DNA of 32,102 nt, taken from Defluviitaleaceae bacterium. GTDB taxonomy: Bacteria > Bacillota > Clostridia > Lachnospirales > WRAX01. Shown here piece by piece: positions 19,928 through 25,746 of this stretch. The position numbers and the translations under genes are program-made. The first letter of the stretch is position 1; every line of letters starts with the position of its first letter. The stretch covers positions 1-32,102 of the forward strand of contig WRAC01000032.1 of assembly GCA_009780415.1 (NCBI GenBank), read 5' to 3'. A model generated the notes under the pieces. The model did no database searches and was not told the origin of the DNA. It saw only the letters and a program-made list of their open reading frames with translations.

Positions 19928-20674
19928 TTATTTAACTGCATTAACTATATCAACAAACTCCGTTTTCAAGCTTGCTCCGCCAACAAGGCCGCCGTCGATG
20001 TCCGGCATGTCGAACAGGTCTTTGGCGTTTGCGCCGGTTACGCTTCCGCCGTATAAAATGCGGATTTTACTTGCCGCGTCCGTACCGTACAGTACGCCGA
20101 AAACTTCGCGGACGCAAGCGCAAGCCTGCTGCGCCTGGTCGGGCGTGGCGGTTTTGCCGGTGCCTATGGCCCACACCGGTTCGTAAGCGATAATCGTCGC
20201 CAGAGCGGTTTCCGCGTCAACATCCATATACGCTATACGCACCTGCATACGGAGTAAATCCTCGGTAATGCCCTGCTCGCGCTGGGTAAGCTGCTCCCCG
20301 ACGCATACAATGGGCGTAAGCCCCTTGGATACGGCTTTTTTAAGCTTTTTATTAACGGTTTCGTCCGTTTCGTTATAATACGCGCGGCGTTCGGAATGAC
20401 CCACGATAACATATTTCGCTTCCATTTTAAGAAGCATATCCGCCGAAACCTCCCCCGTAAACGCGCCGCTGTCCTCATAATGCAAATTCTGCGCGCCGAT
20501 TCCGATGGGATAATCCTTCACCGCTTCCTTCACGCACCAGAGGTTTGTATAGGGTACGCAAAACACAACCTCCGCGCTTGTTTGAAACTTCGGCGCAATA
20601 CCTGCCGCAAAATCCGCGCCTGTTGCCGAAGTATGGTTCATTTTCCAGTTACCCGCAACTACTTTCCTTCTCAT
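19928..20674 (-). CDS. tpiA: Triose-phosphate isomerase
   Basis: This interconverts dihydroxyacetone phosphate and glyceraldehyde 3-phosphate. The 248 residues have Lys11 in AGNWKMN, His93 in VGHSERR, Glu165 in AYEPVWAIGTG, and the phosphate-gripping loop GTGKTA. The C-terminal LYGGSV and GGLVGGASL phosphate-binding motifs are complete. The ribosome binding site is weak and distant (GGGGAG), lying at the pgk stop 9 bases away, so expression may depend on coupling to pgk. Confidence 0.98.
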   Translation of the reverse strand: MRRKVVAGNWKMNHTSATGADFAAGIAPKFQTSAEVVFCVPYTNLWCVKEAVKDYPIGIGAQNLHYEDSGAFTGEVSADMLLKMEAKYVIVGHSERRAYYNETDETVNKKLKKAVSKGLTPIVCVGEQLTQREQGITEDLLRMQVRIAYMDVDAETALATIIAYEPVWAIGTGKTATPDQAQQACACVREVFGVLYGTDAASKIRILYGGSVTGANAKDLFDMPDIDGGLVGGASLKTEFVDIVNAVK

Positions 20675-24677: not shown

Positions 24678-24745
24678 ATATTTTGCATAATCATCAACAG
24701 CATTCTATTTGTTTTTAAGCGGCTTTCGGTATAAAATCAGCGTTA

Positions 24746-24857
24746 ATACCAAGTTGCAATCTAAAGCACACTAACTCCGGGCGGATGATCCAGTACGCTC
24801 ACGCTCAGGCCGGCTCATCCGCCCAGAGTAAGTGTTGCTTTGATTGCAACTTGGTAT
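24746..24857. mobile_element. Palindromic insertion element (MITE-like) in the 3' end of the MFS gene
   Basis: Two 43-base arms (24746-24788 and 24815-24857) are inverted repeats with only a few mismatches or one-base offsets, around a 26-base loop. The outer 16 bases (ATACCAAGTTGCAATC) match perfectly. A 12-base direct repeat, GGTATAAAATCA, lies at 24728-24739 and again at 24853-24864, consistent with target duplication. The element supplies the last codons and the stop of the MFS gene. It codes for nothing itself; it would need a transposase in trans. Confidence 0.75.
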
Positions 24858-25746
24858 AAAATCACCAGTATCGGGAAGATTGCCGCCGTTAACAAGCCTG
24901 TTTTCATGGTGTTCCCGTCTATAGCGGATACTATGCCGACTACCGTCGGGCCGAGCGAACAGCCCAAATCCCCCGCCAGCGCCAGCAGCGCGAACATGGC
25001 GGTTCCGCCGCTGCAGTTTGCCGCCGCCAGGCTAAGTGTTCCCGGCCATAAAATACCCGCCGCAAAGACGCAAGGCCCGGCGAGATCGCCGATGGTTTTG
25101 GATACGCCCAGCTCCGATTCCGCAAAAGCCGAGGCCCATTGGCTCATGGCTTGTTCGGACGCGCCCGAGACAACCATCAGGAACATAAAAAACCAAAACA
25201 TTTTCATGGAAAACAATTTTTTGAAGGATATACTGCCGTGTTTATCAGCTAATGACGCAATCGGCACTTTTGAAAAATAAAAGACATTCGTAAGCGGGAC
25301 AAGCGCCCAGAGCACGGCTAAAATCTGCCAGTTCATGATGCCGAAAACTACGAAGAAAACCGTGGAAATCAGTATTACGGAAACCTGTCCCCAACAGTAA
25401 AACGAGTGCAGCAGGCTCATTGCCGCCGATTTTTTTCGGTTATGGGGCAGGCCTCGACAATGGGGCTTATCAGAACCTCGATTATGCCGCCCCCGGCAGC
25501 GTAGATAACGACGGAAACAAGCAGCGCCGTGAAGGGATCGCTGAAAATCAGCGGGAAAATACCAAGACCGGCAAGCCCCACGGCCGCGCAGATATGGGCG
25601 GTTATAATCAGCGGCCTGTAACCTATTCTGTCCGCGAATTTCGCGGAGGCCAAATCCGCAAGCAATTGGACAAGGAAATTGACGGTAATAAGCAGCGTTA
25701 TCCTATCCAGCGGGATGCCGAAAGAACCTTGAAATGTCAGAAACAA
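24815..25746 (-). pseudogene. MFS transporter, disrupted (N-terminal loss, frameshift, altered C-terminus)
   Basis: Two overlapping minus-strand frames (25746-25417 and 25420-24815) encode successive parts of one major facilitator protein. The first runs from FLTFQGSFGIPLDRITLL to SPIVEACPITEKN; the second continues with MSLLHSFYCWGQVSVIL to the last membrane span. They are separated by a shift at a run of seven A residues on the coding strand (25436-25430); eight A would restore one frame. About 25-30 N-terminal residues (the first span) are missing, and the best start is a TTG without Shine-Dalgarno directly after the C39-like gene. The C-terminus after VILY is encoded by the palindromic element. 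The frames meet as an ATGA overlap, so split translation is possible, but three defects argue for a decaying gene. Substrate unknown. Confidence 0.8.

Follow-up and report, generated by a model that had tools for sequence, protein, structure and literature searches.

The window, i.e. the whole stretch of 32,102 nt analysed here (contig WRAC01000032.1 of the Defluviitaleaceae bacterium assembly GCA_009780415.1), harbors a palindromic element near the 3' end of a gene for an MFS transporter. The features at this locus are as follows.

24705..24743, minus strand: native transporter C-terminus, cut off; after VIL it reads TLILYRKPLKNK and the stop TAG, and the first T-L spans the site (empty-site translation)
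24728..24739, no strand: left GGTATAAAATCA, native transporter sequence (the 12-bp repeat is unique to this copy; empty-site reading)
24744..24746, no strand: left copy of the target duplication, TAA (identical TNA 3-mers at 15 of 18 full copies)
24747..24856, no strand: MITE copy, TACCAAGTTGCAATC...GATTGCAACTTGGTA, 110 bp (17 further full-length copies; one difference from the consensus)
24747..24788, plus strand: left arm of the palindrome
24815..24856, minus strand: right arm of the palindrome
24818..25420, minus strand: C-terminal part of a putative MFS transporter pseudogene; the last 12 codons before the stop are element-derived (homologues in 43 genomes)
24853..24864, no strand: right GGTATAAAATCA, consisting of the element end GGTA, TAA, and AATCA of the target (boundaries of the 18 copies)
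24857..24859, no strand: right copy of the target duplication, TAA (same basis as the left copy)
25417..25746, minus strand: N-terminal part of the same putative pseudogene, beyond the frameshift (MFS_1 match and alignment)

The transporter gene carries three lesions besides the element. About 28 N-terminal residues are missing, a frameshift is located between CPITEKN and MSLLHS, and a deletion of about 56 residues precedes GILWPGT. Taken together they point to a decayed pseudogene, and some of them could be assembly errors. With the insertion, the open frame on the minus strand ends with QVAIKATLTLGG and a stop codon, both provided by the element, as described in the first-pass annotation; the TAG stop at 24705-24707, from which the former end of the protein had been read, is also present on the minus strand. 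The exchange of seven residues for 12 proposed there stands as far as the element residues and the stop are concerned, but its functional meaning is slight in a gene with three further lesions.

Further copies were sought in the genome to which the window belongs (85 contigs, 2.53 Mb). In total, 18 full-length copies with a common core of 110 bp (TACCAAGTTGCAATC...GATTGCAACTTGGTA) were detected, the window copy and 17 others, distributed in both orientations over many contigs and in many cases located in intergenic regions or at gene ends. They are 92-100% identical to the consensus, with a mean divergence of 2.3% (45 differences in 1980 positions). The near-identity of these dispersed copies rules out an old conserved palindrome, of which there was no sign at the site either, and agrees with the earlier description of a recent, non-autonomous mobile element. 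The element is shorter than about 300 bp and has no coding capacity of its own. In the consensus, the first 15 bases are fully complementary to the last 15, forming terminal inverted repeats, and the dispersed copies are associated with target duplications, all as defined for MITEs. Judged by its copies, the palindrome is real and mobile, and represents a new, recently active MITE family.

The boundaries of the element became apparent from the comparison of the copies. Identical TNA 3-mers, located before TACC and after GGTA, flank 15 of the 18 full copies (TAA nine times, TGA and TTA three times each), loci showing one copy twice being counted once. When all related elements of the genome are considered, identical 3-mers are present at 24 of 29 (23 TNA, one GTA), each with a chance of 1 in 64. 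The middle base differs between sites but is the same on both sides of one element, and is therefore part of the target. The inverted repeat had been placed at 24746-24788 and 24815-24857 and called near-perfect; it is present, but the 43-bp arms match at 37 of 43 positions, and the element proper extends from 24747 to 24856.

These boundaries bear on another reading, the one favored in the first-pass annotation, according to which the element duplicates the 12 bp of GGTATAAAATCA and the ancestral transporter ended with VILYRKPLKNK. Two exact copies of GGTATAAAATCA do flank the palindrome, and the frame joined across them reads to the same stop. Yet a 12-bp repeat occurs only at the window copy, the longest one near any other copy being 9 bp, and the boundaries common to the 18 copies are different. 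With a duplication of 12 bp, GGTA, which is part of the terminal inverted repeat, would also fall outside of the element, and the resulting C-terminus needs a gap of four residues in the last helix when aligned with homologues. The comparison of the 18 copies, with a duplicated target of 3 bp at 15 of them, thus refutes the 12-bp duplication, and this version is hardly tenable; only TAA is duplicated at the window copy. Within 20 bases of the transporter gene, TGATTTTA occurs two times, and the next four bases (TACC) match the element end. This agreement between the left 12-mer and the element is a coincidence.

The length of the duplication decides how empty sites are read. If the element is removed together with one TAA, VILTLILYRKPLKNK is obtained, a reconstruction from the window copy, and its translation ends with ...FPILVILTLILYRKPLKNK followed by the stop. 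In a longer reading, ...AAIFPILVILTLILYRKPLKNK before the stop, this C-terminus aligns without gaps to 19 homologous transporters of the order, the closest of which ends with ...AAIIFPILLIIGLILCKRVTDRGEV. The insertion point of the window copy is an in-frame Leu codon, TTA on the minus strand.

Folding of the window palindrome was predicted to be very stable, with -40.1 kcal/mol as single-stranded DNA (z = -9; none of 200 shuffles equally stable) and -74.8 kcal/mol as RNA (z = -15). Since many copies are intergenic or adjoin gene ends, a hairpin serving mainly the host, as a terminator or by protecting mRNA in the manner of REPs, with mobility being incidental, was considered as well. The Rfam search of the window produced no family match and thus recognised no structured RNA, and no terminator- or promoter-like match was obtained at the window copy. 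Target duplications and near-identical copies indicate recent transposition, and a primarily host-serving hairpin is therefore quite unlikely. The predicted hairpin of the MITE could in addition terminate or protect transcripts.

Shorter relatives of 43, 45, 47, and 68 bp were also detected in the genome (G000:C2:16176-16249, C10:52039-52112, C30:7256-7304, C1:125033-125085, C15:39830-39880). They have kept the ends, the centre of the palindrome is absent, and most of them show matching TNA flanks. In two copies of 68 bp the centre is identical, whereas the flanks are TGA in one case and TCA in the other; this short form thus appears to have moved itself. A second MITE subfamily of 35-162 bp, starting with TACCATGTTGC... 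and having the ends TACCATGTTGCAATC ... GATTGCAAGATGGTA and TNA flanks, is present in the same genome (G000:C1:92923-93060, C24:6408-6575, C54:3096-3263, and also on C14, C7, and C23). At one further locus (L030; G000:C44, around 20058-20121), a half-element abuts another palindrome, GTAGGGGCGATCCGTGATCGCCCCTAC, resembling GTAG-tagged REP sequences.

In the window's own draft assembly, neither a transposase with matching ends nor a complete element with both ends was detected, and the partner transposase was therefore inferred from other genomes. Similar ends were found in IS630-type candidate autonomous elements of two genomes, G050 and G108. The closest IS end is present at eight sites in G050, a genome of the same order, each about 80-190 bp away from a contig end, as expected of a repeated IS. 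It reads TNA followed by TACCAATTCGCAATCTAAATACAAC..., and its first 25 bases match the MITE end at 20 positions (counted by eye). The adjoining frame ends with ...LENNGELLQSITGFNWVISCI, its stop TAG lying inside the end repeat; in one contig, a one-base difference shifts the frame next to the IS end. This IS is known from its right end and 48 residues, the full IS being unassembled. The best plasmid matches to this C-terminus reach at most 50% identity, most of them bearing the annotation IS630 family transposase or simply transposase, and no relative was detected among the viral contigs searched. In full-length relatives of the transposase, two frames encode a winged-helix part (HTH_33) and a DDE_3 part.

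A complete IS630-type element of 1123 bp is contained in G108 (L127:891-2013), with the ends TACCAATCCCTAA and a TTA duplication. Among 13 transposase relatives, a 3-bp TNA duplication was obtained for 11 (TTA 5, TGA 2, TCA 2, TAA 2), a somewhat favorable proportion because end repeats and flank identity were scored jointly, which rewards flank identity; TACC ends are common to eight of the 11 and fix the boundary independently. Other candidates were rejected. The IS630 fragment of the window's own genome (L095; G000:C27:1-914), truncated, frameshifted, and located at a contig start, has no TACCA-type end nearby; DDE_3 elements of G050 (C147, C151), G208, G013, and G014 have no matching ends; the end of an IS630 relic in G008 differs; and the relatives L121 and L187 showed no convincing ends. 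On a contig of isolate R3-B46 (L171), an IS630-like C-terminus is followed by a matching end; this contig was set aside since its interior reads N.

From these analyses it appears rather likely, with a probability of roughly 0.85, that the element is a MITE with recent activity and that an IS630-like transposase targeting TNA moved it in trans. Such a DDE transposase, composed of a winged-helix DNA-binding part and a DDE_3 catalytic part, would recognise the TACCAAGTTGCAATC... ends in trans, excise the element, and insert it into a TNA site in a cut-and-paste reaction. Repair of a 3-base stagger would then duplicate TNA. The element has spread recently to about 18 full-length sites of the genome, and at the window site it landed in the Leu codon TTA (minus strand) of an MFS gene that is also broken elsewhere.

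The duplication itself raises the question of a different transposase. Duplications of TNA or TWA are usual for IS5-family (IS1031-group) and PIF/Harbinger-like transposases, the IS1031 group duplicating 3 bp of TNA. The 3-bp TNA duplications found here would fit a MITE derived from the IS5/IS1031 group, and the IS5-type transposases of the genome lay outside the survey. The transposase linked to these ends is of the IS630 type. Against mobilization by either of these types, the nearest IS end adjoins an IS630-type C-terminus, and complete IS630-type elements with TACCA ends carry TNA duplications; a transposase of the IS5 or PIF/Harbinger type is therefore an improbable mover. The transposase probably stems from the IS630/Tc1-mariner family, of which ISY100 is the studied bacterial example. 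TA serves as the insertion site of ISY100 and IS630 and is duplicated by them (PMC2170065), whereas TNA is duplicated here. In its ends the MITE resembles IS elements that encode an IS630 (DDE_3) transposase, but the TA duplication of the studied members was not found.

Related elements are present in other genomes. Other genomes of the family and the order contain cousin MITEs of 50-206 bp that share the end motif, most of them with TNA duplications. When about 85,000 species genomes were scanned for TTTAGATTGCNANTTGGTATNA, 25 stretches were found, while about two are expected by chance according to our own estimate. The matches belong to MAGs labelled Defluviitaleaceae, to several cyanobacteria, and to single records of other phyla; G050 and G013, the latter of the window's family, are among the Defluviitaleaceae-labelled MAGs. 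Judging from the isolate names, termite guts would be the host of the Defluviitaleaceae-labelled MAGs. Most of the cyanobacteria with TTTAGATTGCNANTTGGTATNA have palindromic elements of 101-126 bp. Other phyla also contain MITE-like palindromes (68-195 bp) that carry the end motif of the window element and mostly have TNA flanks, namely in cyanobacteria (L174, L183, L184, L167, L169), a Deltaproteobacteria MAG (L186), and a Victivallaceae MAG (L181). A. variabilis and Nostoc plasmid sites carrying the end motif yielded no convincing MITE.

Several known repeats are comparable. RUP of pneumococcus is a non-coding, foldable element of about 107 bp with many copies, and its terminal repeats resemble those of an IS630-family element (IS630-Spn1), the proposed mover in trans (PMC3049150). 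By description, it is similar to the window element in size and kind, but RUP is AT-rich and the window element has a GC content of 51%. Nezha is a short, non-coding, palindromic MITE of cyanobacteria linked to ISNpu3-like elements and proposed to be moved by an IS transposase (PMC3049150). The cyanobacterial elements of 101-126 bp have the window end motif and TNA duplications; their identity with Nezha is only a lead, and the palindromes of the other phyla with this motif are possibly related to it. REPs are characterized as sequences of 20-40 bp, one end of which carries a tag (PMC3733652). GTAG-tagged palindromes of this kind are short, repeated, and often located outside of genes, like the copies of the MITE described here, which in contrast comprises 110 bp, is untagged, and has TNA duplications. 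With this element, a well-bounded, recently active MITE family is now given for an uncultured Clostridia-type lineage. Its kind is an ordinary one; less usual are the duplication of TNA and the frequent landings on stop codons.

The target rule accepted for the IS630 family would become wider if TNA duplications were confirmed for its elements; such duplications may already be on record, for example in ISfinder, and a literature search on them led to a single paper, by its title on Shigella strains. A subgroup of IS630-like transposases and their MITEs in Clostridia, cyanobacteria, and beta-proteobacteria with a 3-bp TNA target instead of TA is offered here as a tentative, rather doubtful proposal. 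The window copy is not inserted at a stop codon. For five of the 29 elements of the window's genome (L018, L031, L032, L033, L073) and for three of 14 in relatives (L049, L051, L070), the adjoining gene has the duplicated TNA as its stop codon, either TAA or TGA. Since TAA and TGA are both of the TNA type, the duplication rebuilds the stop codon and the protein is left intact, which suggests a simple way for such elements to spread without damage to genes. Landing on stop codons appears to be enriched: outside of gene bodies, eight of 28 insertions are located on stop codons compared to 6.1% of comparable TNA sites (P = 2e-4), a count based on simple longest-ORF gene calls and few loci, in which some of the relatives' copies could share descent.
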